DNA of 39,808 nucleotides, taken from positions 1 through 39,808 of the forward strand of contig JAUZPM010000017.1 of the NCBI GenBank assembly GCA_030705925.1, in the 5' to 3' direction. This document shows positions 2,681 to 18,379 of the stretch, piece after piece (within the stretch, counting starts at the first letter, position 1; each line of letters opens with the position of its first letter). The notes below the pieces were generated by a model. That model was not told the DNA's origin and did no database searches. It saw only the letters and a list, made by a program, of their open reading frames with translations. Position numbers and translations under genes: made by a program. This DNA is from Bacillota bacterium (GTDB lineage Bacteria > Bacillota > Clostridia > Oscillospirales > Feifaniaceae).

Positions 2681-3871
2681 TTAATTCCATGCTCCATCAA
2701 TTTTATGTAAGTATTTTAGCTTATCGACATCCTTATCGGTTACATTATGATATATATTCACCATTTTTAAAGAATGCTTTAATCTAAATAAAAAGCATCT
2801 TACAAATCTAAATATCCAAAACACTGGCAATAAGAACGGAAATGACTTAAGGATATGGCATTGCGTTCGCATTGCACTTAAAGGAGGAAAAAATAAATAA
2901 AATTCATACAACAGTTTTGCTTTAAAGATTGAGTTTTTCTTGTAAGTATAATTGCATAAACTGGAGAGCAATGCAACGTTATAGACACCATATTGCCCAC
3001 TTGAGAAAATATACTCCGACATTTTATCATAAATTTCATTACAGAGCTCATCTCCGAACCATACATTACAAAGCCCCAAAATATTATTTTCGAATATTGT
3101 CAGCTTAATATTATTAAGTTCCTCTTTAATATAGTCCCAATTTAATTTAGGATAAAAATATTTATTGTAGATATTAATATCCATTATTGAACGAATACCT
3201 GTTCCGCCATTTGTATAATGCTTTGTTAAATGAATAAAAAGATATATTAAAAAATCTTCGGGAGGAAGTTGATATTCGTTTTTACTATTATTTGTTGGCG
3301 ATGCCTTGTCCCAAATATTATTTACATAGCTACAATATGGTGAGCTTTCAGATACAAGAGCTTTGTGTATTTCGATATTCATATAAGGTATTTTTTGATA
3401 TGCTTCATGATAATTGCAACTATCTTTTTTTATATAACCAAGTTTAATCATTATATTATTTATTTTTTTCAAATCTTTATCTTTAATAAGAATATCAATA
3501 TCCGCCATTTGTCTCATATCGGGGCAAGGGTATAGACTTTTTAATATATATCCTTTTAATACTATATAATCAATATTATTTTTTTCGAATATTCTTTTAA
3601 TATTTTCTACTTCTGCATGTTGTACTGCTTCTTTGGCAACAGCTTTTTTATAATCGATAAAAAATTTTGTAAAAATATCATTCGGCGGCATAGAAAAACT
3701 ATCAAGCTTGCTAATTCCATAATATATCATGTTGGATATTTTGTGCTTCTCTGCAATTGCATAAAGCTTTGACCAATCAAGATCCTCAGGTGGAGGGTCA
3801 GGATCAAAATCATTAATAATTGATGATAGCAGGTAAATTAAATATTTTTTTTCTGGCTGAGCAGTATACAT
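2681..3871 (-). CDS. Nucleotidyltransferase-family protein (NTP_transf_5-like)
   Basis: A 396-residue protein. The recognisable core is YIVLKGYILKSLYP (residues about 97-110) followed by R-Q-M-A-DIDILI (about 116-125). This is the G-(x)n-DxD nucleotidyltransferase signature of the uncharacterised family often found in lasso-peptide and other RiPP clusters, where it is proposed to add a nucleotide or sugar-phosphate group to a peptide (family knowledge, not shown here). The ATG at 3871 has GGAG 10 nt before it, and the gene overlaps the exporter gene by 59 nt. It is the last gene of the cassette. It is strikingly AT-rich: row 3061-3120 has 15 G+C of 60, against 28 of 60 in a valS row (25441-25500). 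Confidence 0.8.
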   Translation of the reverse strand: MYTAQPEKKYLIYLLSSIINDFDPDPPPEDLDWSKLYAIAEKHKISNMIYYGISKLDSFSMPPNDIFTKFFIDYKKAVAKEAVQHAEVENIKRIFEKNNIDYIVLKGYILKSLYPCPDMRQMADIDILIKDKDLKKINNIMIKLGYIKKDSCNYHEAYQKIPYMNIEIHKALVSESSPYCSYVNNIWDKASPTNNSKNEYQLPPEDFLIYLFIHLTKHYTNGGTGIRSIMDINIYNKYFYPKLNWDYIKEELNNIKLTIFENNILGLCNVWFGDELCNEIYDKMSEYIFSSGQYGVYNVALLSSLCNYTYKKNSIFKAKLLYEFYLFFPPLSAMRTQCHILKSFPFLLPVFWIFRFVRCFLFRLKHSLKMVNIYHNVTDKDVDKLKYLHKIDGAWN

Positions 3872-5549
3872 TGCTGTTGCTCCTTTCTATTATTGCTATT
3901 GATTGGTTGTTAAATCTAATCTCTTTATTGCAAATTGAAAAAGCGGCTTTTTTATGACTGATAATGACACAGGTTTTATCGGTCATCTTTTTTAGGTTTT
4001 GTAATAACTTTTCTTCAGTTAATTCGTCGAGCGCAGATGTAGATTCGTCTAAGAGTAAAATCGGGGCATCACTTAAAAGCGCTCTTGCAATTGCAAGACG
4101 CTGCACCTGGCCTTCGGACAGCCCGTGTCCTTTTTCTCCAATTTTTGTATCAAGGCCGCTTGGAAGCATTTGAATAAAATCAAAGGCACAGCTAATTTTA
4201 GCGGCGTCTATAATTTCTTTGTCAGTGGCGTCTGATTTAATAAAAGCGATGTTATCACGGATGCTTCCGGATAATAAAAGATTGCCCTGAGGAACATACG
4301 CGAAGAGCTTTCGTGTATGTTTGTCTATAGACAGTTCTTGGCCGTTTGAAAGCTTAATATAGATAATCCCGTCATCAGGTTTAAGGATCCCGAGCATCAG
4401 TTTGAATAGTGTGCTTTTGCCGATGCCAGAAAGACCTGATACTACGATAAAATCTCCTTTTTTTATGTTTAAATCAACATGGTTTATAACAAGTTTTTGC
4501 CCATAGCCAAAGGATAGATTTTTAAGCTCTATACTGTTCATATTTTTATAAACGGACTGAACATTAATATCATTTTGATTGATTTCCAGTTCTTCCGGTA
4601 AATTTTCAATTTCCATCATGCGTTCAGCTGAGGCCAAAACGTTATAAACCATAGGCAGCATCCCGGATAAATTTGCAAAAGGGGTTTGAACTTGTCCAAC
4701 CAGTTGCAATATAGCTGTTAGAGTTCCAAAACTGATCGTTTTAACAATCATTCCAAGTGAACTCCAGACTAGAGCAAACAGATACGCCATTGAGAAAACA
4801 AATGAGAAGCCGGTGTTTGCCATAATGCCTATGGCATTTTTTTTAAGTTTAGCTTTATAATGATCTGTTCCGAATCTTATTGTTTTATTTTCAAATTCTT
4901 TTTCTGCTCCGAATATTTTAACGACAATAATATTTTCTAGGACTTCCTGTATAAAGGAACGCAGTATTCCATCTTTCTCTTGAACATTTTTATGAAAATA
5001 TTTAAGTCTGCTTCTAAAAAATTTTGTTGTAAAAAATAAAAGTAGACCGCCTAAAATAAAAATCAGTGTAAACATTTTATCTAACATAAAAAGTATTACC
5101 AAAGAGCTGATAAGTTTTGTCATTAGTCCCGCAAAATTAGGCAGTATATTTGAAATTCCTTCACTAACGACGGTTACATCGCTTGTTAATCTATTAAGTA
5201 AATCCCCACTGTGGAATTTCATTGTATTTGAATAGTCTTTATGTAAAATCACGCTGAGCAATTTTGTTTTGTATGTCATTTCTAGTTTGCCTTGCATTTT
5301 TGCCGCTGTATAGCGGCAGAAGACGCGAAGTATTAACTGAATAATAATTACTACCAGCAATTTTAAGCTTTGAATGAACAAATAACTTTTATTGCCGGTT
5401 GATGTGCTGTCAATCACGCCTCTACATGCAAGAGCAAACAGAACACCGCATAATGCAAAAAGAGAATTGCCTACCATTAATAAAACCATTAATGGTATAT
5501 GGCTTCGGGAATTATGATACAGCCATTTAAACGTTTGCTTATCCTTCAT
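3813..5549 (-). CDS. ABC exporter half-transporter (fused membrane and ATPase domains)
   Basis: A 578-residue exporter of the lipid/peptide (MsbA/MDR-like) type. Six predicted membrane helices fill the first ~310 residues. The ATPase domain follows with Walker A GLSGIGKST (about residue 370), a Q-loop in YVPQGNLLLSG, the signature LSEGQ (about 475), Walker B ILLLDES and the switch histidine in IISHKKA. There is no N-terminal C39 peptidase domain, so any leader removal must be done by another protein, such as the adjacent S26 protease. I chose the ATG at 5549 over an upstream in-frame start at 5615 because it has AGGAG before it and lies 14 nt after the protease stop. Export of the 35-residue peptide is inferred from context. 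Confidence 0.93.
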   Translation of the reverse strand: MKDKQTFKWLYHNSRSHIPLMVLLMVGNSLFALCGVLFALACRGVIDSTSTGNKSYLFIQSLKLLVVIIIQLILRVFCRYTAAKMQGKLEMTYKTKLLSVILHKDYSNTMKFHSGDLLNRLTSDVTVVSEGISNILPNFAGLMTKLISSLVILFMLDKMFTLIFILGGLLLFFTTKFFRSRLKYFHKNVQEKDGILRSFIQEVLENIIVVKIFGAEKEFENKTIRFGTDHYKAKLKKNAIGIMANTGFSFVFSMAYLFALVWSSLGMIVKTISFGTLTAILQLVGQVQTPFANLSGMLPMVYNVLASAERMMEIENLPEELEINQNDINVQSVYKNMNSIELKNLSFGYGQKLVINHVDLNIKKGDFIVVSGLSGIGKSTLFKLMLGILKPDDGIIYIKLSNGQELSIDKHTRKLFAYVPQGNLLLSGSIRDNIAFIKSDATDKEIIDAAKISCAFDFIQMLPSGLDTKIGEKGHGLSEGQVQRLAIARALLSDAPILLLDESTSALDELTEEKLLQNLKKMTDKTCVIISHKKAAFSICNKEIRFNNQSIAIIERSNSNVYCSARKKIFNLPAIINY

Positions 5550-5563
5550 ATCCCTTCTCCTAA

Positions 5564-5998
5564 TTATTTTATTATTCTTAAATAAAACCATCTGATCGGA
5601 TATATGAAAACCCATGCTTTGCTGTACATTTTATATTTAAAACTGTCACAGGAAATATATTTATCATCTTTCCAAAACCCATTTACAACACCTATGACCT
5701 GTGAAGGATTAACGGGATATTCTTTATTAAATTGATTATCACCCATCACCTCAAAGCCATCTTCTTTTATGCCGACTATACGATGAAGAATGTATTTACC
5801 ATCCTTTCGCACAAACAAAGGAATGTCATATTTCTTTAGATCATGTACGTCAATACTTTTAATGCAGACTTTATCTTTACGATGCCGCAGCATTGGAGCC
5901 ATGCTGTTTCCTGTTATCGTAAAAATGACCTCTCCGTCTTTTTTTAAAACATCTCTCATGACAGGAATAAAGTCTGATAAATATGCCCTTTTATTCAA
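5564..5998 (-). CDS. S26/S24-type serine protease, signal-peptidase-like
   Basis: A 144-residue protein with the S26 fold signature. The catalytic serine is in TGNSMAPML (Ser32). The second conserved box is YILHRIVGI (His72) where bacterial type I signal peptidases carry a lysine, so this resembles the Ser-His SipW/ER type. G-D-N-Q-F-N follows. A hydrophobic, aromatic C-terminal segment (WVFIYPIRWFYLRII) may anchor it to the membrane. The start is a TTG at 5998 that overlaps the PqqD gene by 8 nt. The ribosome binding site is weak and the exact start is uncertain. Placed between the PqqD-like and exporter genes, it is the best candidate for cutting the peptide leader (inference). Confidence 0.85.
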   Translation of the reverse strand: MNKRAYLSDFIPVMRDVLKKDGEVIFTITGNSMAPMLRHRKDKVCIKSIDVHDLKKYDIPLFVRKDGKYILHRIVGIKEDGFEVMGDNQFNKEYPVNPSQVIGVVNGFWKDDKYISCDSFKYKMYSKAWVFIYPIRWFYLRIIK

Positions 5999-6254
5999 GC
6001 AGATCAGCTGCCTTTAATTTTACAAGAAAAGCTTTAGCATCTGCCCTAGCGGTTGTTTCATCAGTATCATATTCATTTAATATAGCGCCAAGCAATTCTT
6101 TCTCAGTTTTTTCATCTGTTAACTGCTTCCATAAAAACGCCCCTGTTTCGTTAAGCGTAATTAATCCATTAAAATCAAGAGCAGTTGCCCCTAGAGGCAC
6201 TACGATATAATTCCCTGCAACTTCTCTCATAAAATATCCGCTTTTAATTTTCAT
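5991..6254 (-). CDS. PqqD-family peptide-binding protein (RRE)
   Basis: An 87-residue protein with the PqqD pattern: a beta-rich N-terminus with GxxxLDFNGLITLNETGAFLWKQL (residues 22-45), then a helical C-terminus. PqqD domains are the RiPP recognition element that holds the leader of a precursor peptide for modifying enzymes. The gene overlaps the kinase-like gene by 11 nt and the protease gene by 8 nt, so these three are tightly coupled in translation. The predicted partner is the 35-residue peptide at 8125-8232, whose YxxPxI motif resembles leaders bound by the PqqD-like B1 proteins of lasso clusters. That pairing is inference. Confidence 0.9.
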   Translation of the reverse strand: MKIKSGYFMREVAGNYIVVPLGATALDFNGLITLNETGAFLWKQLTDEKTEKELLGAILNEYDTDETTARADAKAFLVKLKAADLLE

Positions 6255-6972
6255 TATTATCCCATCCTTTATTATTTATTGTATTATAAGCAAGCTTTAC
6301 TGCATCGAAACTTATAGTACATCCCATTTGATAAACTGGTATATCTTTTATCAAATTATCAATTAAATATAATAACTTTTCAATTTTGTCATTACTGTTA
6401 AATCGCATACTTTGATAGATTAACATTTGCGCGGCTTTTTTATTACTTAATCTTCGAATATTATTTTTCTGTGCCTGCTCTAAAAATACTACAGCTTGCA
6501 GCGGTACTCTTATATTTTTACTCAAATCACTTTTTCCACTCCAAGGAGTTCCATACACATAAAAAGTTTCATTAATAAAACGTATTGCGGGTTTATCGTC
6601 ATTAATAATGACAGCTTTGTCTGTTCCAAAATATTTTTGCCATAGATTTGTATGAGTTGACTTCCCGGTTCCGCATGGGGCGGAAAATAGAACCGCTTTG
6701 TTATTTAGCGCAACTGCTGATGAATGCAAACAAAAACCGTTATAGTTTAATAAAGAACTATAAAAAGAAAATCCCGTTTGAATATATTCCCATTCGTTTG
6801 CTGTCATGGTAGGATAATTTTTTTTTAATATTTTATGCTTTTCATCATTAACGTCTATTGAAATGTCAATCGAATTACACGTATCTGTTTTATACGGTAA
6901 TGCCTGTCTGAGTAATGTTTCACCTGTAAAATTCATAGATACTGTTAATTCGGCAATTTTATATATATTCAT
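6244..6972 (-). CDS. HPr-kinase-like P-loop protein (putative peptide serine kinase)
   Basis: A 242-residue protein. LHSSAVAL (82-89) precedes the P-loop SAPCGTGKSTHT (97-108), then IINDDKPAIR (122-131) and YGTPWSGKSDL (140-150). This order of boxes is that of the HPr kinase/phosphorylase catalytic domain, without its usual N-terminal regulatory domain. Homologues in lasso clusters such as paeninodin phosphorylate a serine of the precursor (established for that family). Here the peptide offers Ser23, Ser24, Ser28 and Thr32 as possible targets. The ATG at 6972 has GGAG before it. The gene follows the SLH gene by 53 nt and overlaps the PqqD gene. Confidence 0.83.
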   Translation of the reverse strand: MNIYKIAELTVSMNFTGETLLRQALPYKTDTCNSIDISIDVNDEKHKILKKNYPTMTANEWEYIQTGFSFYSSLLNYNGFCLHSSAVALNNKAVLFSAPCGTGKSTHTNLWQKYFGTDKAVIINDDKPAIRFINETFYVYGTPWSGKSDLSKNIRVPLQAVVFLEQAQKNNIRRLSNKKAAQMLIYQSMRFNSNDKIEKLLYLIDNLIKDIPVYQMGCTISFDAVKLAYNTINNKGWDNNEN

Positions 6973-7025
6973 AAATAAACTCCACTAACGAATGTCCTTA
7001 CAAATTCTATGATTATTTAAATGAG

Positions 7026-8045
7026 TTAATATTCTGTGATGTCGCCGCTGCTGCCTGCGTTATCAGAATTATCAGTGTTTCCCGAGCCGCCAGAGCCGCT
7101 GGATCCAGTAGACGCACCTGAGCTATTAGAACCGCTTGAACTACTTGAATCATTTAAATTGATCCCATCTTTTTCGATGACTTTATTGCCCAGATTGCTA
7201 TTTGTTATTGTTATCCTGTCAGCCCCGCCGCCCCGTATAAACGTACTTCCTGTAACTGTTACATTAACGAGACTAACAGATCCTTCACCAATTCCTTCTG
7301 AAAGATAAAGATTACCTGTAATTTTCATATTTTGAAGTACTGCATCAGGGGTGTTTATCACAACATTTCCGTCTGAATTTGTACTATAATTTCCTGGTTC
7401 ATTAATATAAAGTCTAATAATATTATTTAAAATCTGGACTGTTTCGGCTCGGCTGAGATTGCAAAATGGATCAAAAAACCCTCCATCTTTTCCGTTAATA
7501 TACCCTGAAGCCTCCATGCCAAAAATAGCATCCTTTGCCCATTCCGGCAAATTAGTGTCTTTAAAGCTTGTATGGTCTCCTGAATTTTCATTTACAGAAA
7601 AGATCCTTTTAAATATTAATGCTGCTTCAGCGCGGGTTACTGGATCGTTAGGGCGAGCCAAAAGATTCCCGCTATTATCCAGATCCCCTTTTATTATTCC
7701 TCTGGTATATGCCTTATTTATAAAATCATAATACCAATCGTTATTTTTGATATCTGAAAATGGATTATCAGTTGTTTTTTCATAACCAAAAATCCTATAT
7801 AATATAGCAGCCAGTTCTGCACGGGTAATTTGTTTATCGGGGTAAAAATTTACTCCGTCTCCATTTATAACGCCTTTACTGCTCCAGTTATTGATTGCTT
7901 GTTTTGCCCAAAATTTATCATTTACGTCTGAAAAAATAGAGGTGCCGTTTTCTTGTGCTGCCGTGATGTATCCAAAAGAATTAGTAATGATTATTGCTAA
8001 AAATAAAAACATTTCTATGGTTAATCTAAATGTACGCATTTTCAT
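7026..8045 (-). CDS. SLH-domain surface protein with serine/glycine-rich tail
   Basis: A 339-residue exported protein. A signal peptide covers about residues 1-30. Three S-layer-homology domains follow (FSDV..WAKQAI, FSDI..WYYDFI and FKDT..WAKDAI; roughly 36-90, 95-150 and 155-215), which should bind secondary cell-wall polymer. A short beta-rich region (about 230-295, DAVLQNMKITGNLYL..) leads to a low-complexity Ser/Gly/Asn/Asp tail from about 298 to the end, finishing SSGDITEY. That ending resembles the GGDTGDY end of the small peptide encoded just upstream. The gene lies inside the peptide cassette, after the hairpin at 8079-8114, with GGAGGG before the ATG. It may anchor or display the cassette's product. 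Confidence 0.92.
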   Translation of the reverse strand: MKMRTFRLTIEMFLFLAIIITNSFGYITAAQENGTSIFSDVNDKFWAKQAINNWSSKGVINGDGVNFYPDKQITRAELAAILYRIFGYEKTTDNPFSDIKNNDWYYDFINKAYTRGIIKGDLDNSGNLLARPNDPVTRAEAALIFKRIFSVNENSGDHTSFKDTNLPEWAKDAIFGMEASGYINGKDGGFFDPFCNLSRAETVQILNNIIRLYINEPGNYSTNSDGNVVINTPDAVLQNMKITGNLYLSEGIGEGSVSLVNVTVTGSTFIRGGGADRITITNSNLGNKVIEKDGINLNDSSSSSGSNSSGASTGSSGSGGSGNTDNSDNAGSSGDITEY

Positions 8046-8078
8046 ATTTGGCCCTCCATTTTATTTGCATTTCATTAT

Positions 8079-8114
8079 GAAAAACAGGCAGGCATAAGAT
8101 CCTGCCTGTTTTTC
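8079..8114 (-). terminator. Perfect hairpin after the peptide gene (terminator/attenuator)
   Basis: A perfect 14-bp stem (8079-8092 with 8101-8114) with an 8-nt loop and T-rich edges begins only 10 nt past the peptide stop codon. The downstream cassette genes have no obvious promoter of their own, so partial read-through is expected. Peptide mRNA would then exceed mRNA for the SLH, kinase and exporter genes. Confidence 0.85.
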
Positions 8115-8124
8115 AATAATTAAC

Positions 8125-8232
8125 TTAATAATCTCCTGTGTCCCCGCCGCTGGGATCGATACTACTGCATGTAATATCCTCAATTTCAAATTCTGTAATT
8201 TCAATTTCTGGTTTTTCATATTGTTTTTTCAT
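8125..8232 (-). CDS. 35-residue acidic peptide, candidate RiPP precursor
   Basis: A gene below the usual length cutoff. The ATG at 8232 is preceded at 7 nt by a perfect AGGAGG, and the stop is TAA at 8125. The peptide opens MKKQYEKPEI (1-10), continues through an acidic stretch rich in alternating I/E/F, and ends SSIDPSGGDTGDY (23-35). Y5-x-x-P8-x-I10 matches the YxxPx(L/I) leader motif bound by PqqD-like domains in lasso systems. Thr21 stands at the penultimate-leader position if the core starts at Ser23, which would put Asp31 at core position 9. The AGGAGG directly abuts the stop codon of the giant LTD gene, giving translational coupling, and a strong hairpin follows. The cassette has no lasso cyclase, so the final structure is unknown. 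Confidence 0.85.
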   Translation of the reverse strand: MKKQYEKPEIEITEFEIEDITCSSIDPSGGDTGDY

Positions 8233-8245
8233 TTTTATACCTCCT

Positions 8246-11200
8246 TTAGTTCATTGTTTGGGATACTGTATTGCTACTGTAAACAATAATGACATTGCCA
8301 TCAGCATCCTTGTAAATCAAATATGCTCTTGCGTACCAGGTATCACCGGATGTTACATTGCACTTGCGAATATAAAATTGATTTGTGGAGTTATTTTTAA
8401 TTTTTCCGCGAATAACATTTGCTGTATCTATTGTGAGTTCAGCAGTTAAAGGCGTATTTGATTTAAGTAAAAGAACGCCGCTTTCCACTAAAGTATAACC
8501 GCTTGGCACAGATCTGTTGGCTGTAAACATAATTGTCTTATTTACAGAATCCATTTGTATGTCCGATGACAATGTAATAAACGGTGAATTTACTGCTGAA
8601 ACTGCGGAGCTCACAAATACCGCTTCAAGAGTAGTGGCGTTCATCGGGGCAAAGTAATTGTAAGTGGAATCGGTGCTTATCTTTACGCCGTCCTGGCTCC
8701 AATAACTGAATTTTTGTCCAGAAGGTGCTGTATTTGCCACGACTGTTACCGGCATATCGAACTTAAACTGCCCGGATGTACCGCCCGTGGATAGCGTTCC
8801 ATTGACAACGGTTACTGTATAAGTGGTATCAAGCCTCTTATAAACGGCATTTACCGTTAAATCACTGGTAACGTTATTAAACGATTTATCCCAACCTGTA
8901 AACTGATATCCTGCAAAATTAGGTGTGCTTGGCGGAGATGCGGCTAACCCTTTTCCAACGCTGCTTGATTGCAGAATTTTGCCGCTTTTATCTTTAAATA
9001 TTACTGTGAATTGAGTTGTTTCTGCCGTTGGAATTCTTACAAATACCGCTTTCACAGAAATGTTTTCGCCCATTATAAAGTCGCAGCTCGGCTGCGTGGA
9101 AATAATGCTACCGGATATAGTGTCCTGCCAATAGGCAAATGTATCTCCATCACTCGGAGTTGCAGTAATGTGGATACTTGACCCTTTAACCGGCTGGGCT
9201 TCAAAATTAGGTGCCAAACCAGCTGAATCATTATTCATTTTGACGATGCCATTTCCTTCAGCTATGACTGTTAAAGAGCCTTTTGGCATCTCAACAAAGC
9301 TGGAGGTCAGGGATAAATCACTTGTTACTTTGAACGAATAATTAGGCAGCGGCGATACTAATTCATTTCCTGCGTACCAACCGTTGAAATTATAATTTGG
9401 ACTGGGAATTGCACGCAGAGTAGCGTACTCTCCATCACTGTATGCCCCCGCTCCGCTTATTGCTCCGTTGACTGGATCCGCTATAGTTACTATATAAGTT
9501 TTGGGTGCGGCTTCGGCAATTATTGTTGTCCCGAAAGGAGCCAAGTCTAACGCTGTATTCTTAGTTATAGTTGCAGTTAATACAACGGGGACGTTTCCTA
9601 TAGCGCTTGAAGGACGAGTCACAACGCCGTCATTACTTATATAGGCAGTGTTGGAAGAAGCCCATGTAACAATAACATCGCCGTATTTAGTTGAAATTGT
9701 TTTCGGCAACGTGATGTTCTCTGTCAACGTTGACGCAATGGAAAGTGATTCCTTAGCGAGTGAAACTGCTAATTTATCGGCAGCCGCTGTTAACGCATCT
9801 TTCTTTTCATCCGGGACAAGTGCTTTTTGCAGTACTGAAAGTCCATTATACGCGCTATTTGCGGCGTCTACTGACGTTTCAGTAGGTATTGCGCCAATTG
9901 CGTCTATCAGCGCGATTACGTTATCTGCTTCAAGGGTATCAAATGCAGTTTCAGCATCTGTTAGGGTCTTGTAATTTGAAACAAGTGCTTGATCTGCAGG
10001 CGACAGATTATTATAAGCTGTGCGTGCCGCTGCGATTGCCGGACCACTGTCCATAGATACAATGCCGATTGCGTCAATCAGATGTTCCACAGTTACATAC
10101 GCAGGAGTTCCGGCTACTGTAAATGTAATTGAATACGTCTTTGTTGTTCCGTCTTCTGCTGTCACGACTATTTCAGTTTCGCCCGGCAGTGTTGACGCCG
10201 CAGTAACATTCGCTGTTGCACTCTTATTGGCCGTTGTGGCTGAAACCATTGGGACAATAGACGTACCGTAAGGCAGCGTAACTGTATAGTTTTCCGTTGC
10301 CGGCGAGAAATTGTCTATTGTAACACCGCCTACAGTCAAGTCAGACAGTGTCGCATCGGATGATTTAGCTACTTTGAATGTAACTGTGTATGTCTTAACA
10401 TCTTTGTTCTGTGCTGTTACAACTACAGTTGCGCTATCGTTGACGGATTTTGCCTGAACGATAGACATCGTTGCTGTAGAATCCTCCAATAACGCATCAA
10501 TTGCTGGTGGGATCGATGTACCAGCTGGGAGTATTACAGTATAGTTCGTTGTCGCCGGATCAAATGCAGGTGACAGATTGTAATTTCCGACAGTAATGGA
10601 ACGCAGGTTATTATCTGTTGACGCTTCCGCAAGAGTAAAGTTAACTGTATAGGTCTTATTTGTTGCGCCGTCTTCAGCTGTGACAACTACTGTTGCCGAT
10701 CCCGTCAGAGTACTCGCTTGAGTAATTGAGACGGTTGCTCCGCCGTCTGACGTTACAGCCGAAACAATTGGTGCATCAGTCGTGCCATACGGCAATTTAA
10801 CATTGTATGTGTAGGTTGTTGGGCTGAAATTATCAATTCCACTACCATTGAATTGTAAATTAGACAACGTTGCATCATTAGATTTGGCAACTGTAAAGTT
10901 TATAGTATATGTTTTTGTTACTTTTCCGTCTTCTGATGTTACCTTAATTTGCGCTGATCCGGTTGTTGAAGCTGCCTGCGTATATGCTATAGTCGCAAAA
11001 GTGCTGGAGGCATTCGCGCTTACAGAAGGCGCACTTTTTGTTCCGTGCGGCAATGTAACCGTATACGCGGTTGTATTTGTATTAAATGAAGGCGATATTG
11101 TTCCAACAGGAACAGTTATAGACGCTAAGCCTGCATCAGAGGATAAAAGTTGCCCCGGCAAAATTGTACCCGGTGTTGCATTAGCTTTTGGTTGATATAT

Positions 11201-13234
11201 TGTTGCGGTAATTGAACCTTTTGCCTGTTTGAACAAAGCGGTTTTTCCGGCTGCAATATCAGGCGACGATTCCTTCTCACCATTGTATGTTGATGATGCT
11301 ACCGTTGCTGCTTTACCGATTGAATATAAGCTCAAGGTCGTGGCGTACGAGTTGGGGAGATTACCTGCTCCTGATATACCAGTACCATTTTCATCACATT
11401 GCAGCACTATAATACGATGGGCTTTATCCAACGATAAGTTATTTCCAAAATCAGTGCTGTTGCTAGCAAATGCTGCCCAAAAACCAGCCTTATCACTTTC
11501 GGAGGTATATTTAAGAAAAGACTTTGTGCTGCTGTCTGTCATATACATTGCAAATACATATGTTTGATGAGGCTGCAATAAAGTCGGGCCTTCTCCTTCG
11601 GTAAGAAAATACTTGTCGATAGAAGATCCCACTTTCAGCTGCAAATCAGCAAGGGGTACAGGGTCATCACCAGTAACATAAACCTCGACAAATTCTGTAT
11701 TGTCATTACTATTAGCAAGGCTTGGATCAGGAAGTGCTTCGGAGATAAGAAGGCCGTAATTATATAATTTTGATTCGTATGAAACCAGCGTATTATAGTT
11801 TGTCACCAATAATTTTTGTATAGTGCTCAAAGACTCATAGGCTGACCTTGCACTTTTTACTGCGTTTTTGTCTGTCCCGCTTAATGCGGTAATCAAATCA
11901 ATGACATCTTGAGCAGCTGATTTATCTTCTGCTGATCCTAGAGCTACGTTTAGAGGACTATCCGGCGTACCCGCGTAGGTTATATTCCCGCTGCTGTCTT
12001 CGGCTGTAATATAATAATCGATTGTGGACCCGTTAAACGGATAATAGGATAGATTTAAAGGAACTTTACAAGAAAAAGTTGAGCTTTTAACAGGGGCGGA
12101 TTTTATCATGCAGCAATTGTTACTTAATAATGATGATTTATAAGCGGTGCTGCCCGTTTGTCTATACATTACATGAAAAGAATTAAGGCCGGTTTCGTCA
12201 GTTGCCGTACCATTTATCTGTATTTCAGGCGTGGTGCCTGTAAAATATTGTGCTGTATTATTCGTAATAACCGGTTTGTTATTATCTCCGGACCCGGGAA
12301 TTTGCCAACTCTTGAGCCCGGTGCCTATTGTTGCTGTTTGCATTGTGACATGTTCTGAATCCGAATTTGCAGGTGTATATGAAACGCCAAGAACCGGATC
12401 ATAAAAAAGATCGATTGATTTGTTATTGTCGGCGGTTGAGGCGCGCATATAATATGCCGTGCTGACAATATCCGAATCATTGGTCAAAACATGGTTTTTA
12501 TCGGTGGAAGCGGTTGCGGTATTTTTAACTATGTATAAGATTCCTCGTCTGGCGGTATTGCCGGGCGTACCGGCCGGACTTGCCTGTCCGATATATGCTA
12601 GATTATCCAGGAAGAAGTTACTTCCGGCAGTATAACTGGCACTATATTGAGTTAATGAAGCAGTCATACTGGAACCGGATAAATTTTTTGGATATTCAGC
12701 ATAACAAATCCTCGAAGTATCTGTAATCCCGTATGTGCTAACAAAACTATCCTTTTTTAATGCATAATATGGAGATGATGGACTTGTGACACTACTCGGA
12801 GTCCATTTGATCCATACCGCTTTAGTATCATGAGAGTGAATAATCAGCGTGCCAGTATCAGCAACTTCACCGGCGGTATACGAAGAAGTCGCAGTAAACT
12901 TATTAATTCCTGTGTAGGTTGGACTGTAGAGTTTTGGATCGCAAACACTTGTCATTGCAAAGGGTGCCACATAATCCAATTTTTGAGCTAATGCATAATT
13001 GCTTAAATCAATATCATTGTCTGTAGTGTTGTAAATCTCGATCGCGTCAAAGCCGTCCTGGCCGGTGTTAGCCTCGTTGGCTGAGTTTTGTACTACTTCT
13101 GTCACAATTAAGGGCGGCACATTGCTTGATGCAGTCGCAGGCTGATTGTCTGCAAATGCCCCACTAGGAAATGCGCTGAAAATCATGCATGCTATTAATG
13201 CAATGGAGATGCCTGATTTAGCTGCTTTTTTCAT
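8246..13234 (-). CDS. Giant secreted multidomain protein: LTD, cadherin-like and InlB-type repeats (LTD1)
   Basis: A 1662-residue exported protein. The signal peptide is at residues 1-28 (hydrophobic IALIACMIFSAFPSGAFA). Domains in order: lamin-tail domain from about 40 (PPLIVTEVVQ..DAIEIYN), a second LTD at about 490 (LLISEALPDPSLAN), four cadherin-like beta-sandwich units at about 700-1040 (each ends near AEDG..KTYTxxFxVA), a helical region, an atrophied bacterial Ig-like domain (about 1165-1240), InlB-type repeats (about 1245-1500) and a beta-rich C-terminus. There is no LPXTG sorting signal. I chose the ATG at 13234 over one at 13279 because GGAGG precedes it and the paralogue starts there. 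The role is probably cell-surface structure or adhesion. The stop codon touches the peptide's ribosome binding site. Confidence 0.92.
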   Translation of the reverse strand: MKKAAKSGISIALIACMIFSAFPSGAFADNQPATASSNVPPLIVTEVVQNSANEANTGQDGFDAIEIYNTTDNDIDLSNYALAQKLDYVAPFAMTSVCDPKLYSPTYTGINKFTATSSYTAGEVADTGTLIIHSHDTKAVWIKWTPSSVTSPSSPYYALKKDSFVSTYGITDTSRICYAEYPKNLSGSSMTASLTQYSASYTAGSNFFLDNLAYIGQASPAGTPGNTARRGILYIVKNTATASTDKNHVLTNDSDIVSTAYYMRASTADNNKSIDLFYDPVLGVSYTPANSDSEHVTMQTATIGTGLKSWQIPGSGDNNKPVITNNTAQYFTGTTPEIQINGTATDETGLNSFHVMYRQTGSTAYKSSLLSNNCCMIKSAPVKSSTFSCKVPLNLSYYPFNGSTIDYYITAEDSSGNITYAGTPDSPLNVALGSAEDKSAAQDVIDLITALSGTDKNAVKSARSAYESLSTIQKLLVTNYNTLVSYESKLYNYGLLISEALPDPSLANSNDNTEFVEVYVTGDDPVPLADLQLKVGSSIDKYFLTEGEGPTLLQPHQTYVFAMYMTDSSTKSFLKYTSESDKAGFWAAFASNSTDFGNNLSLDKAHRIIVLQCDENGTGISGAGNLPNSYATTLSLYSIGKAATVASSTYNGEKESSPDIAAGKTALFKQAKGSITATIYQPKANATPGTILPGQLLSSDAGLASITVPVGTISPSFNTNTTAYTVTLPHGTKSAPSVSANASSTFATIAYTQAASTTGSAQIKVTSEDGKVTKTYTINFTVAKSNDATLSNLQFNGSGIDNFSPTTYTYNVKLPYGTTDAPIVSAVTSDGGATVSITQASTLTGSATVVVTAEDGATNKTYTVNFTLAEASTDNNLRSITVGNYNLSPAFDPATTNYTVILPAGTSIPPAIDALLEDSTATMSIVQAKSVNDSATVVVTAQNKDVKTYTVTFKVAKSSDATLSDLTVGGVTIDNFSPATENYTVTLPYGTSIVPMVSATTANKSATANVTAASTLPGETEIVVTAEDGTTKTYSITFTVAGTPAYVTVEHLIDAIGIVSMDSGPAIAAARTAYNNLSPADQALVSNYKTLTDAETAFDTLEADNVIALIDAIGAIPTETSVDAANSAYNGLSVLQKALVPDEKKDALTAAADKLAVSLAKESLSIASTLTENITLPKTISTKYGDVIVTWASSNTAYISNDGVVTRPSSAIGNVPVVLTATITKNTALDLAPFGTTIIAEAAPKTYIVTIADPVNGAISGAGAYSDGEYATLRAIPSPNYNFNGWYAGNELVSPLPNYSFKVTSDLSLTSSFVEMPKGSLTVIAEGNGIVKMNNDSAGLAPNFEAQPVKGSSIHITATPSDGDTFAYWQDTISGSIISTQPSCDFIMGENISVKAVFVRIPTAETTQFTVIFKDKSGKILQSSSVGKGLAASPPSTPNFAGYQFTGWDKSFNNVTSDLTVNAVYKRLDTTYTVTVVNGTLSTGGTSGQFKFDMPVTVVANTAPSGQKFSYWSQDGVKISTDSTYNYFAPMNATTLEAVFVSSAVSAVNSPFITLSSDIQMDSVNKTIMFTANRSVPSGYTLVESGVLLLKSNTPLTAELTIDTANVIRGKIKNNSTNQFYIRKCNVTSGDTWYARAYLIYKDADGNVIIVYSSNTVSQTMN

Positions 13235-13284
13235 TCTCTTTCCTCCAATTAATCGCAAAAGATTGGAAAAGCTTTCCACGATTA

Positions 13285-13912: not shown

Positions 13913-16900
13913 TTATAAAAGCTGGCCTGGCAGAATGGTTCCCGGGGTAGCAGTGGCATTTTTTTGATACAGCACCGCTGTAACTGAATTTGCTACTTGC
14001 TTAAATAAAACGGATTTTCCGGCGGAAATGTCAGGCGATGACGTGCTCTCGCCGTTATATGTCGAGGACGCCACCGTAGCAGCTTTTCCTTTTGAATATA
14101 AGCTCACGGTCGTAGTGGGCCCATTGGGTATATTGCTTGCGCCATCAATTCCCATTCCGTTTTGATCACACTGCAGCGCGATGATGCGGTGAGCGGCATC
14201 CAGCGATAAACCGCTGCCGAAATCAGCTGTGTTGTTTGCAAAAGCTGTCCAGAAATTCGCCTTGTCGCTTTCGTAATAATATTTGAGCGATGACTTATTG
14301 CAGCTGTCTGTTAGATATATTCCAAACACATATGTCTGGTGCGGCTGCAACGAAGTCGGTCCATTCCCCTCAGTGACAAAATAGTTATCGGTGTATGACC
14401 CGCCGGCATTTTGAATTTTAAGTGATAAATCCGAAAGAGGCACAGGGTCGTCGCCAGTAACATATACTTCTAAGAATTCTGTATTATCGTTACTGTTTGC
14501 AAGGCTTGGATCAGGCAATATTTCGGAAATTAGCAGACCATAATCATACAAATTTGATTCATACGAAACCAGCGTATTATAGTTCGTCACCAATAATTTC
14601 TGCGCCGTGCTTAACGATTCATAAGCAGATCTGGCATTTTTTACTGCTGCTTTGTCAGTTCCAGTTAATGCAGTAATCATATTTACTACATTCTGCGCTA
14701 TTGGCTCATCAGCCATTGTGCCTATATAATCAATAAGATCACAGGGGCGATCTGGCGAAATAGTATAGTCATCACCATCGTATAATATATTTCCAAGAGC
14801 ATCTTCGTAAACAAAATAAAATTGGATATCAGTCCCGCTAAACGGACAACAAGGTGTATTTATTGGGAACGTCCCATTGACGGTAACGTATGTAATAGGA
14901 GTAGAACTTAGCATGCAGCATTCTGTTTTCATCGGTTTATAGGCGGTTTCGCCGGCTTTTCTGTACATTAAATGTGCCGTAACAAATCCACTGCTGGCAC
15001 CGCTACTAGAGCTTATAGCCAATTCGGGTGTGTTGCCTGTTACCATATTCCCATAGGGAACATATTGATATCCATCAGTATTGTCGCCTCCCATTCCCGG
15101 CATTTGCCAAGTTTTAAGCCCTGAGCTGACGGGAAGTCCCATTGTAGGTGTTTGTGCTGCGGCATGTTGTGAATTAGAGTTTGCCGGCACATACGAAACA
15201 CCTAAAATCGGATCAAAGAAAAGGTCGATTGATTTGTTATTATCGGTACCGGTGGCGCGCATATAATATGCCGTGCTGACGATATCGGAATCATTAGTCA
15301 ATACGCCGTTTTTATCAGAGGAAGCAGTCGCAGTGTTTTTAACTATATACAAGATACCGCGCCTGGCAGTATTTGCTGCATCAGTTCCAGGCGTGCCAGC
15401 CGGGCTTTCTTGACCAACATATGCTAGATTATTAAGGAAGAAATTACTTCCTGCAGTATAACTGGCACTATTTTGAGTCAACGAAGCAGTCATGGTTCCT
15501 GATCCTGATAAATTCTTCGGGTATTCGGCATAGCAGATTCTTGAAGTATCTGTAATTCCGTATTTTGCAGCAAAATTACTCTTATTTAATGAATAATACG
15601 GGCAGCTTGGGCTTGTAATATTTGTGCCTGAACTTGGAGTCCACCTGACCCATACTGCTTTAGTGTCGTGGGGATGAATAATCAGTGCCTCCGCATCGGC
15701 CGCTTCACCAGATGTATATGAAGATGTTGCTGTAAATCTATTGATTCCTGTATACGTCGGACTGTAGAAATTCGGATCAAATGCGCTTGTCATATTAAAT
15801 TGTGAAACATAATCCGACTTCTGTGCTATTGCATAATCGCTTAAATTTATATCATGGTCTGAAGTGTTATAAATCTCGATTGCGTCATAGGCGTCCTGAC
15901 CGGTAGTAGATTCATTATCCGCGTTTTGCACAACTTCTGTCACTATTAATGGTGGTGCATAGTAGTTTGCAGCTTTATCGTATGAATCTCTAAAGTTTAT
16001 GGTATATGTTTTAGTTGCTCCATTTTCAGCTGTCACTACGATTTGCGCTGTCCCGGTTGAAGAAGTGGCCTGCGTGTAGGCTATAGTCGCTAAACTGCTG
16101 GACGCTGTTGCACTTACAGCCGGTGCATATAATGAACCGTATGGTAATGTACAAGTATATGTGGTTGTATTTGCAGCAAATGCAGGTGAAATTGTTCCAA
16201 AAGGAACAGTTATAGATGTTAAATTCGCATCACTTGACTGCAGCGTCTGACCGGACAAAATCGTTCCGGGCGTAGCTGCCGCCTTTTTCTGATAAAGCGC
16301 TGCAGTAACAGAATTTGCCACTTGCTTAAATAAAGCGGATTTTCCAGCAGCTATATCAGGCGAAGAAGTACTCTCGCCGTTATAAGTCGATGACGCAACA
16401 GTAGCGGCTTTCCCTTTTGAATATAAACTTACGGTAGTCGCAGGACTATTTGGAAGATTACTGGCTCCGTCTATTCCAAATCCATAATCGTTACATTGCA
16501 GTGCTATAATCCGATGCGCCTTATCAAGCGTCAAATTGCTTCCGAAATCTACGGTATTACCTGCAAATGATGTCCAGAAATTCTCTTTATCGCTCTCCGA
16601 TGTATATTTAAGGCCAGATTTATTGAAGCTATCTGTCAAATATACACCAAATACATATGTCTGATATGGCTGTAATGAAGTCGGTCCCTCACCTTCAGTA
16701 ATAAAATAATTATCGGTATACGATCCTCCGGCATTTTGAATTTTAAGCTGAAGATCAGAAAGAGGTACAGGGTCGCTGCCAGTAACATGAACCTCTAAAA
16801 ATTCTGTGTTGTCGTTGTTATTTGCAAGACTTGGATCAGGCAAAATTTCAGAAATGAGAAGACCGTAGTTATATAATTGTGATTCATACGAAACCAGCGT

Positions 16901-18379
16901 ATTATAATTTGTCACCAATAATTTTTGTGCCGGGGTTAAAGCTTCGTAAGCTGATCTTGCACTTTTAACTGCCACTTTGTCGGTTCCAGTTAGCGCAGTA
17001 ATCGTATTTACTACATTCTGCGCAGCTGTTTTATCTTGTGCAAAGCCTATTTCACATGTATTCGGGTCATCGGGAGTAGCATAACTTTCATCACCCCAAT
17101 AGAATATATTCCCGATGCTGTCCTCGCCAACAAAATAAAACTCAACGCCGGTTCCGTTAAACGGACAATAAGGTGAATTCAAAGGAATCGTTCCACTAAC
17201 AGAATCTGATGTAGGAGATGAATTTAGCATACAGCAATTATTACTTAATGACTTATAAGTGGTTTCACCGATTTTTCTATACATTATATGTAAAGAAATA
17301 AGTCCGTTATCGTCATGTGCTGTACACGAAAAATACATTTCGGTTGTGTTGCCTGTAATATAATTACTGAAGGAAACATCATCATACATACTGCTAAGTC
17401 CGCTTCCCACTCCGGGAATCTGCCAGTTCTTAAGCCCGGTGCCCATGGTTGGCGTCTGTGCCGAAGCATGCTGTGTGTTTGAATTTGCAGGTGAATATGA
17501 AACGCCAAGCATCGGATCAAAGAAAAGATCGATTGATTTGTTATTATCGGTGCTAGTCGCTCGCATATAATATGCCGTGCTGACAATATCTGAATTATTT
17601 GTCAGTATGCCATTTTTATCAGAAGAAGCCGTTGCAGTGTTTTTAACTATATACAAGATGCCCCGGCTGGGGGTATTTGCGGCATCAGTTCCGGGTATTC
17701 CAGCCGGACTTTCTTGACCTACATATGCTAGATTTTCAAGGAAGAAATTGCTTCCCGCCGTATAACTTGAACTATTCTGAACTAATGACGCTGTCATTGT
17801 GTTGGAGCCGGATAATTTTTTGGGATATTCAGCATAGCAGATCTTAGATGTATCCGTAATTCCATATTTTGCGGCAAAATTACTCTTATTTAATGAATAA
17901 TACGGGCAGCTTGGGCTTGTAATATTATTCCCCGAACTTGGTGTCAACCTGACCCATACCGCTTTTGTATCGTGGGAATGGACGGTCAGCGCGTTAGGAT
18001 CGGCCACCTCGCCGTCAGTATAAGAAGACGTTGAAGTGAAATGATTGATGCCAGTATAGGTTGGGCTGTACAAATTTGGGTCAAATACACTCGTCATTGC
18101 AAACGGGGATACATAATCAGATTTTTGGGCTATTGCGTAATCGTTTAAATTTATATCATGGTCTGTAGTGTTATAAATCTCGATTGCGTCATAGGCGTCC
18201 TGACCGGTGGTAGATTCATTATCCGCGTTTTGCACGACTTCCGTCACTATTAATGGTGGTGCATTGACCGCTGCATTTGTCGTTGTATAACCTGCGGCAA
18301 ATGTCCCTATCGGGAATGCGCTTAAAATCATGCATGCTATCAAAGCCATTGAGATTCCAGTTTTTTCTGCCTTTTTCAT
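13913..18379 (-). CDS. Giant secreted LTD protein with tandem-duplicated module (LTD2), 3'-truncated
   Basis: A 1488-residue exported protein. The signal peptide is at residues 1-29 (MALIACMILSAFPIGTFAAG). Two near-identical modules of 768 residues start at Pro41 and Pro809. Each has an LTD (PPLIVTEVVQNADNESTTGQ), a segment with a CCM motif, a helical segment (AAQNVVN..LVTNYNTLVSYES) and a second LTD (GLLISEILPDPSLAN). Module 1 ends with a cadherin-like unit. Module 2 stops at TPGTILPGQLL because of a frameshift, so the matching unit is lost. The ATG at 18379 has GGGGGA before it and its own promoter. It is paralogous to LTD1, which lies just downstream. The likely role is cell-surface structure or adhesion; no enzymatic residues were recognised. 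Confidence 0.9.
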   Translation of the reverse strand: MKKAEKTGISMALIACMILSAFPIGTFAAGYTTTNAAVNAPPLIVTEVVQNADNESTTGQDAYDAIEIYNTTDHDINLNDYAIAQKSDYVSPFAMTSVFDPNLYSPTYTGINHFTSTSSYTDGEVADPNALTVHSHDTKAVWVRLTPSSGNNITSPSCPYYSLNKSNFAAKYGITDTSKICYAEYPKKLSGSNTMTASLVQNSSSYTAGSNFFLENLAYVGQESPAGIPGTDAANTPSRGILYIVKNTATASSDKNGILTNNSDIVSTAYYMRATSTDNNKSIDLFFDPMLGVSYSPANSNTQHASAQTPTMGTGLKNWQIPGVGSGLSSMYDDVSFSNYITGNTTEMYFSCTAHDDNGLISLHIMYRKIGETTYKSLSNNCCMLNSSPTSDSVSGTIPLNSPYCPFNGTGVEFYFVGEDSIGNIFYWGDESYATPDDPNTCEIGFAQDKTAAQNVVNTITALTGTDKVAVKSARSAYEALTPAQKLLVTNYNTLVSYESQLYNYGLLISEILPDPSLANNNDNTEFLEVHVTGSDPVPLSDLQLKIQNAGGSYTDNYFITEGEGPTSLQPYQTYVFGVYLTDSFNKSGLKYTSESDKENFWTSFAGNTVDFGSNLTLDKAHRIIALQCNDYGFGIDGASNLPNSPATTVSLYSKGKAATVASSTYNGESTSSPDIAAGKSALFKQVANSVTAALYQKKAAATPGTILSGQTLQSSDANLTSITVPFGTISPAFAANTTTYTCTLPYGSLYAPAVSATASSSLATIAYTQATSSTGTAQIVVTAENGATKTYTINFRDSYDKAANYYAPPLIVTEVVQNADNESTTGQDAYDAIEIYNTSDHDINLSDYAIAQKSDYVSQFNMTSAFDPNFYSPTYTGINRFTATSSYTSGEAADAEALIIHPHDTKAVWVRWTPSSGTNITSPSCPYYSLNKSNFAAKYGITDTSRICYAEYPKNLSGSGTMTASLTQNSASYTAGSNFFLNNLAYVGQESPAGTPGTDAANTARRGILYIVKNTATASSDKNGVLTNDSDIVSTAYYMRATGTDNNKSIDLFFDPILGVSYVPANSNSQHAAAQTPTMGLPVSSGLKTWQMPGMGGDNTDGYQYVPYGNMVTGNTPELAISSSSGASSGFVTAHLMYRKAGETAYKPMKTECCMLSSTPITYVTVNGTFPINTPCCPFSGTDIQFYFVYEDALGNILYDGDDYTISPDRPCDLIDYIGTMADEPIAQNVVNMITALTGTDKAAVKNARSAYESLSTAQKLLVTNYNTLVSYESNLYDYGLLISEILPDPSLANSNDNTEFLEVYVTGDDPVPLSDLSLKIQNAGGSYTDNYFVTEGNGPTSLQPHQTYVFGIYLTDSCNKSSLKYYYESDKANFWTAFANNTADFGSGLSLDAAHRIIALQCDQNGMGIDGASNIPNGPTTTVSLYSKGKAATVASSTYNGESTSSPDISAGKSVLFKQVANSVTAVLYQKNATATPGTILPGQLL
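13916..18259 (-). repeat. Internal tandem duplication, period 2304 nt
   Basis: Module 1 (18259-15956) and module 2 (15955-13916, truncated) of LTD2 start with the same PPLIVTEVVQN sequence and stay collinear. The unit is 768 codons. Small differences, such as extra residues around the CCM segment, show that it is not an assembly copy. Confidence 0.85.

Follow-up and report, generated by a model that had tools for sequence, protein, structure and literature searches.

A peptide gene paired with a secreted-protein gene beside machinery resembling that of linear polyphosphorylated peptides in a Clostridia locus

Introduction

The 39,808-nucleotide stretch analysed here (the window; contig JAUZPM010000017.1 of a bacterium of the family Feifaniaceae, class Clostridia, whose genome of 2.25 Mb in 115 contigs is 95% complete) raises the question of what a 35-codon peptide gene does between the gene for a large secreted surface protein and a row of genes for peptide-processing enzymes. 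The whole array lies on the minus strand and runs from 13279 down to 2681, encoding in order the surface protein, the peptide, an SLH protein, an HprK-like kinase, a PqqD-like recognition element (RRE) of the type found with ribosomally synthesized and post-translationally modified peptides (RiPPs), an S26 protease, an ABC exporter and an NTP_transf_5 protein. An earlier note on this DNA had listed the peptide gene and the genes from the SLH protein to the nucleotidyltransferase, and all were found as placed. The answer favoured here is that the peptide probably belongs to the upstream secreted protein as its dedicated partner and comes from a machine like that of linear polyphosphorylated peptides (LPP). 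This is based on which genes are present and in what order, on the catalytic and pocket residues, on the recurrence of peptide and protein genes as pairs, on covariation of the peptide core with the C-terminal domain (CTD) of the protein, and on an association between RRE and peptide residues.

Peptide genes follow genes for secreted proteins

Directly upstream of the peptide gene lies that of the surface protein, the putative partner; the peptide ATG is 13 bp downstream of its stop codon, with AAAGGAGG as the intervening sequence. Relatives were collected by a PqqD scan of genome contigs, 80 of 179 being kept as loci (L numbers), and by a survey of 291 automatically drawn genomes of the class, the window genome included (G numbers). 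The array of CTD protein, peptide, HprK, PqqD, S26, ABC and NTP genes was found again in L003, L004, L006, L123 and L124, with an SLH orthologue also in L004, L006 and L123. Because it recurs in these loci, the array of the window is not due to chance, and the co-occurrence of PqqD, HprK, S26 and NTP_transf_5 genes beside short YxxP peptides, which the earlier note had suggested looking for, is seen in the same five. When open reading frames (ORFs) of both strands were searched with a peptide profile (E <= 1e-3), 17 of the 80 loci gave matches, 18 ORFs in all, and each of them lies on the strand of PqqD; the profile had been trained on many of those same ORFs and on rows drawn from that strand.

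In the survey, the CTD was found in 12 of the 291 genomes, the RRE (E <= 1e-10) in 86 and the peptide (E <= 0.01) in 48. Of the 48 genomes with the peptide, 43 also carry the RRE, whose share in the whole survey is 86 of 291 (p 8e-22); the peptide profile behind this comparison was derived from RRE loci. G014, G038, G128, G260 and G288 hold the peptide and lack the RRE. Likewise, 11 of the 12 CTD genomes carry the RRE (p 8e-6), with G117 as the exception. Peptide numbers are high in several genomes: 21 in G216, 15 in G076, 14 in G017, 13 in G016 and 12 in G104. G138 has four CTD genes, each followed by a near-identical peptide, on contigs other than that of its single PqqD match. A peptide does not stand behind every CTD: among 25 readable survey CTD loci, a YxxP peptide with a ribosome site comes next in 9, those of the window and L085 among them.

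For the pair analysis, 79 stretches were taken from 13 of the 48 genomes with peptides, covering a part of the matches in each, and four of these stretches were chosen for the machinery; peptide ORFs with E above 0.05 or longer than 140 residues were left out. No fewer than 74 of the 81 peptide ORFs start between -8 and +48 bp behind a gene of the same strand, 56 of the 74 at 12-24 bp. The upstream proteins have a median length of about 548 residues, and a crude home-made hydropathy rule called a signal peptide in 59 of the 74, compared with 97 of 329 among the remaining genes of these stretches. Among the seven exceptions, one ORF lies at a contig start and has no upstream gene, four have a same-strand upstream gene 119-254 bp away (one being the second peptide of a tandem), and two have their nearest called gene on the opposite strand. 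Surface-protein partners, which the earlier note had thought unusual for such a cluster, are no oddity of this one, as in dozens of other places too the gene in front of the peptide mostly encodes a secreted protein.

A domain scan was made of 65 of the 74 upstream proteins and that of the window, 66 in all; nine were omitted as edge-cut, under 200 or over 1300 residues. It found LRR_5 in seven, LRR_8 in six, Laminin_G_3 in four, and Big_2 and InlB-type repeats in three each. Other families occur in one or two proteins each, and the types found are mostly extracellular.

Peptide cores vary with the C-terminal part of the upstream protein

Covariation was assessed within genomes by Mantel tests between core similarity and similarity of the last 100 residues of the upstream protein, leaving out cores under 12 residues, upstream proteins under 200 residues and genomes with fewer than five pairs. 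The two covary in five of six genomes (r 0.70-0.98): G216 (r 0.73, 16 pairs, p 0.0005), G017 (0.91, 12 pairs, p 0.0005), G076 (0.87, 13 pairs, p 0.0005), G104 (0.98, 6 pairs, p 0.02) and G255 (0.70, 5 pairs, p 0.02). Restricted to proteins with dissimilar N-termini, r is 0.69 in G216, 0.91 in G017 and 0.98 in G104. These similarities suggest that the pairs travel or evolve as units, possibly by co-duplication; they support a lasting partnership and are not proof of contact. No prior description of peptide/secreted-protein pairs, dispersed precursors or peptide/CTD covariation was found in the open-licence literature of PubMed Central (PMC), and these three form the new part of this work.

The machinery resembles that of linear polyphosphorylated peptides

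LPP were defined by Popov et al. (PMC13381572, May 2026) from the lpp cluster of Paenibacillus alginolyticus, in which lppA, K, B, S, D and N encode the precursor, an HprK kinase, an RRE, a signal peptidase I-like (SpI-like) protease, an exporter and an NTP transferase. Phosphorylation, RRE binding and SpI-type cleavage have been demonstrated experimentally for this cluster: S3 of the core is the residue modified by the kinase, cleavage by the protease takes place after T-1 and depends on the RRE, and D70 of LppB hydrogen-bonds the leader Tyr (PMC13381572). The clusters described there hold one to three precursors each and have capsule loci as their context, and the biological role of LPP is given as unknown, a role in biofilms being called tempting but untested (PMC13381572).

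All the LPP core genes, for an SpI-like peptidase, a discrete RRE, an HprK-like kinase, an NTP transferase and an MsbA-like exporter, are present in the window. The order A-K-B-S-D-N is shared by the window, L003, L004, L006, L123 and L124, differing only in the SLH gene inserted behind A in the window, L004, L006 and L123. Further likenesses are the lack of a cyclase and a B2 protein, the YxxP leader, the Asn/Asp/Phe pocket of the RRE, the Ser-His-Asp leader peptidase of SpI type and a Ser close behind the leader. The precursors, on the other hand, differ. The LPP motif YxxPxVLxHQxIxFETxxS is absent, and the peptides here have YxxPx[hydrophobic] and a nearby Ser instead; neither Px9Fx[T/A] nor HQ occurs in any of 119 distinct peptides (0/119 for each). 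The Ser mostly stands one residue later than the LPP acceptor, which the spacing puts at P+15; the peptide of the window has Ser at both P+15 and P+16, and Ser23/Ser24 is its predicted acceptor. Moreover, the precursors can be dispersed over the genome, and surface-protein genes take the place of the capsule loci reported for LPP.

By its genes and their order the machine is LPP-like, and this part is already known in kind. Since the precursor signature differs, the cluster is named LPP-like and not proven LPP. The core of the earlier note, an RRE-guided pathway to a linear phosphorylated peptide cut by the S26 enzyme, was largely right, as the machinery genes and their order equal those of the lpp cluster (PMC13381572) and the catalytic residues are kept. 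Nucleotidylation, which the note gave as an alternative to phosphorylation, is unsupported; deletion of lppN altered no detectable product in the lpp cluster (PMC13381572).

The equality with the lpp cluster also favours another explanation, a free-standing linear phosphopeptide of LPP type, be it an antimicrobial, a signal or a biofilm factor as in Bacilli, with the surface-protein gene merely a co-transcribed neighbour. In keeping with it, the available text of the LPP authors names no surface-protein partner (PMC13381572). However, 74 of 81 peptide ORFs lie behind a same-strand gene, mostly one for a secreted protein, and the peptides track the C-terminus of that protein, so that this explanation appears somewhat unlikely.

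Window proteins were compared with Pfam and NCBIfam, and AlphaFold models were compared by Foldseek. The kinase has no significant Pfam match, and its best families, ScmC (2.3e-11) and HprK_rel_A (5.6e-4) of NCBIfam, are below cut-off. Its model (pLDDT 91.2) has HPr kinase/phosphatase as top Foldseek match (E 7e-6, TM to target 0.50), followed in the ranking by PEP carboxykinases. ScmD of the same SynChlorMet system is among the matches of the RRE. The window proteins do not reach the equivalog cut-offs of ScmC, ScmD and HprK_rel_A, families whose gene context we take to be other than that of the window. The S26 protein matches archaeal-type signal peptidase I (2.5e-10) and Peptidase_S24 (1.4e-4), both below cut-off, and the ABC protein shows no C39/peptidase domain among its Pfam and NCBIfam matches.

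Among the 80 loci, the P-loop Lys, the Asp of NDD and the His of HxS are each kept in 60 of 61 kinase homologues, the Ser, His and Asp of the S26 protein each in 54 of 54, and both Asp residues of the nucleotidyltransferase DxD in 12 of 12. LppB (9x8z) is a weak phmmer match to the RRE (E 0.17), with N35, D72 and F76 of the latter aligned to N33, D70 and F74. Across 143 RRE rows, the pocket has N in 141, D in 113 and F in 127.

Some kinase loci depart from this picture. The kinase-like protein at L023:10724-11395 has no P-loop Lys and stands beside RRE and S26 genes; it is perhaps a binding-only copy. At L033 an HprK-PqqD pair without S26 adjoins genes for DUF1846 and chaperonin proteins, ApbE being encoded on the opposite strand (Pfam), and L016, L021 and similar loci probably have the same layout, judged by gene lengths. 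In a search for kinase copies on plasmids, three records matched, none at 80% coverage.

The leader motif is associated with the RRE pocket

The leader consensus was drawn from the 119 distinct peptides, with those lacking [YF]xxPx[hydrophobic], duplicates over 22 residues and genome G186, which has none of this kind, left out. It reads [YF]xxPxIEIxxF(84%)xxE(73%)[DN][IV][ILV]T(63%)[TA]S(77% at P+16). For 52 genomes or loci with both RRE and peptide, the first RRE of each was tabulated; some dependence among the rows remains, L003 and G086 having identical RREs. Where the RRE has Asp at the place of LppB D70, the peptides are Tyr-only in 32 rows and of the Phe kind in none; where it has another residue there, they are of the Phe kind in 13 and Tyr-only in 7 (Fisher 1.2e-7). 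The Asp is thus absent from 13 of 13 RREs paired with Phe peptides. In LppB this Asp hydrogen-bonds the leader Tyr (PMC13381572), and Phe has no hydroxyl for such a bond.

The same data bear on the idea that the small ORF, instead of encoding an RRE substrate, serves the surface-protein operon through translational coupling or regulation. Its start close behind the upstream stop codon would suit such a role. It is made very improbable by the conservation of [YF]xxPxI...S in 119 peptides, by the joint occurrence of peptide and RRE, and by the association of Tyr with the pocket Asp.

No lasso system was found in the genome

A YxxP leader with a B1-like RRE also occurs in lasso peptide systems, and HprK and NTP transferase are common to phosphorylated lasso clusters (PMC13381572), which would fit a lasso system whose cyclase and B2 protein are encoded elsewhere in the genome. 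The genome has one PqqD match, no Transglut_core3 (B2) match and one weak Asn_synthase match. The last we take, from its translation, to be GMP synthase, and a lasso cyclase acting in trans was rejected on this account. The earlier statement that cyclase and B2 are absent and that S26 stands in the B2 place agrees with this result from the 95% complete assembly, and a lasso system encoded elsewhere is extremely improbable. The window cluster shares RRE, HprK-like kinase and nucleotidyltransferase with the paeninodin type of phosphorylated lasso peptides, but has neither the Asn-synthetase-like cyclase nor the transglutaminase-like B2 of that type. The peptides here have Tyr or Phe (YxxP in the window) where the lasso leader has Trp (WxxP), and the RRE has Asn (Asn35 in the window) where PbaB1 has Gly42.

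Proposed mechanism and its weight

The chemistry on the window peptide, its export route and the role of the pair may be pictured as follows. With the [YF]xxPxI leader held by the RRE, the HprK-like kinase would add a phosphate to the conserved Ser that follows the E[DN][IV]xT[TA] stretch (Ser23/Ser24 in the window). The S26 protease, fed by the RRE, would cut near this stretch, the MsbA-like pump would export the linear phosphopeptide, and the nucleotidyltransferase would possibly add further decoration. Sec would be the exit route of the secreted protein whose gene lies immediately upstream. Outside the cell, core and Ig-like CTD would belong together, the modified peptide for example binding or decorating the CTD; alternatively, it might tie the CTD to the S-layer or a wall polymer, an SLH protein being encoded in the same operon.

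A wider form of this proposal is put forward tentatively. A single machine of RRE, kinase, S26 protease and exporter may produce many small modified peptides, every one of them encoded directly behind its own secreted protein and co-evolving with the CTD of that protein. The finished unit would be the Sec-exported protein together with a phosphopeptide that completes, protects or anchors it, an undescribed way of building a cell surface.

Several results weigh against the partnership. G016, with 7 pairs, shows no covariation of core and CTD (r -0.06, p 0.52), and when only proteins with dissimilar N-termini are compared, r drops to 0.37 in G076 and -0.34 in G016. The signal is not specific to the core, as the similarity of leaders also follows that of the CTD (r 0.46-0.90) in five of the six genomes, G016 being the exception, and N-terminal parts covary with core and CTD in G076 and G017; both kinds of covariation are expected if pairs duplicate as units. 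No recognisable peptide is present in 63 of the 80 PqqD loci, some of them on cut contigs and some in different contexts, and the only peptide match of the window genome is the one behind the 8246-13279 protein. The RRE-peptide association is phylogenetically clustered: on a weakly resolved tree Tyr/Phe changes nine times and Asp/other eight times, and a phylogenetically controlled sign test is not significant because only three independent pairs lie on supported branches.

The partners are also not set apart by their anchors, since LPxTG-like motifs were found in 0 of 58 signal-peptide-bearing upstream proteins and in 0 of 70 control secreted proteins. In a special case of the partnership, the peptides would be carriers or tags, and secreted proteins without a sortase-type anchor would be held at the surface via the modified peptide. 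The missing LPxTG-like anchors would fit it, as would the scarcity of C-terminal hydrophobic stretches (in 5 of the 58 upstream proteins, compared with 16 among the 70 controls) and the SLH protein in the window operon; SLH genes lie near 10 of 80 machinery loci compared with 2 of 74 dispersed loci, and the DNA up to 5 kb from PqqD, 717 kb in total, encodes 11 SLH proteins, whereas 399 kb further out encode 3. Yet the controls lack LPxTG-like anchors as well, and most machinery loci have no SLH gene nearby, so that a link to the S-layer is not general and anchoring is quite unlikely. The SLH protein as a general partner was rejected for the same reason.

PEP-CTERM/exosortase and sortase systems act genome-wide, one machinery serving many dispersed surface-protein substrates. 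The partnership proposed here shares this design with them and with MYXO-CTERM; it differs in that recognition concerns a small peptide with a gene of its own, placed behind that of the protein, instead of the C-terminal tail of the protein itself. Together, the pairs suggest an unrecognised peptide-plus-protein surface system in related bacteria. For the role of LPP, the pairing offers a testable answer, namely that the peptides may act as components of surface proteins instead of being natural products on their own. In that case many Clostridia would use RiPP machinery for building their cell surface, and mining inside gene clusters only would miss most precursors in genomes with 12-21 of them.

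Gene array of the window and minor observations

The features of the array are collected in Table 1. The three overlapping gene junctions reported earlier were confirmed as HprK/PqqD (11 bp), PqqD/S26 (8 bp) and ABC/NTP (59 bp). An S26/ABC overlap depends on the distal ABC ATG being the start; by comparison with L004, the ATG at 5549, preceded by GGAG, is the likelier one.

Table 1. Features of the minus-strand array in the window
Feature	Position	Strand	Basis
Large secreted surface protein, 1677 aa; LTD, cadherin-like and InlB-type repeats	8246..13279	-	Pfam
FN3/Ig-like C-terminal domain (CTD) of the surface protein	8249-8593	-	AlphaFold2/Foldseek
Precursor peptide, 35 aa (35 codons), MKKQYEKPEIEITEFEIEDITCSSIDPSGGDTGDY; YxxPxI leader motif	8125..8232	-	
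Secreted SLH protein, 339 aa; three SLH domains and a low-complexity linker, ending in the acidic tail GDITEY	7026..8045	-	Pfam SLH 3.4e-25
HprK-like kinase (LppK position)	6244..6972	-	NCBIfam below cut-off and Foldseek
PqqD-like discrete RRE (LppB position)	5991..6254	-	Pfam PqqD 3.9e-17
S26 signal-peptidase-like serine protease (LppS position), S32/H72/D87	5564..5998	-	
MsbA-like ABC exporter (LppD position); likely start 5549	3813..5615	-	ABC_membrane and ABC_tran
NTP_transf_5 nucleotidyltransferase-like protein (LppN position), DxD D124/D126	2681..3871	-	Pfam 3.7e-61

The CTD is conserved in L003, L004, L006 and L080. Its AlphaFold2 model (pLDDT 91.5) matches FN3/Ig-like structures in Foldseek (best E 3e-3, 0 matches at E <= 0.001); a special fold was rejected in favour of an ordinary FN3/Ig-like sandwich.

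Behind divergent linkers, the SLH proteins of the window, L004, L006 and L123 end in similar acidic tails (GDITEY, ADTVEL, ADMVDY and ADIVDY), which resemble the peptide tails GDTGDY, GGDIIDLED, EGIDLD and DGIDLN. Many cores of L184-L257, from different genomes, have similar ends such as FFGN, IFGN, MFGD, DIYG and LFKN (not counted), and a shared core ending of this kind may indicate a common binding site.

Two further large proteins are encoded in the window. At 13913-18379 lies a second surface protein of the LTD type, kin to that at 8246-13279 and without its CTD. The region 31377-38594 encodes a secreted protein of 2405 residues with many near-identical repeats and a segment that presumably resembles a PHP-type phosphoesterase.

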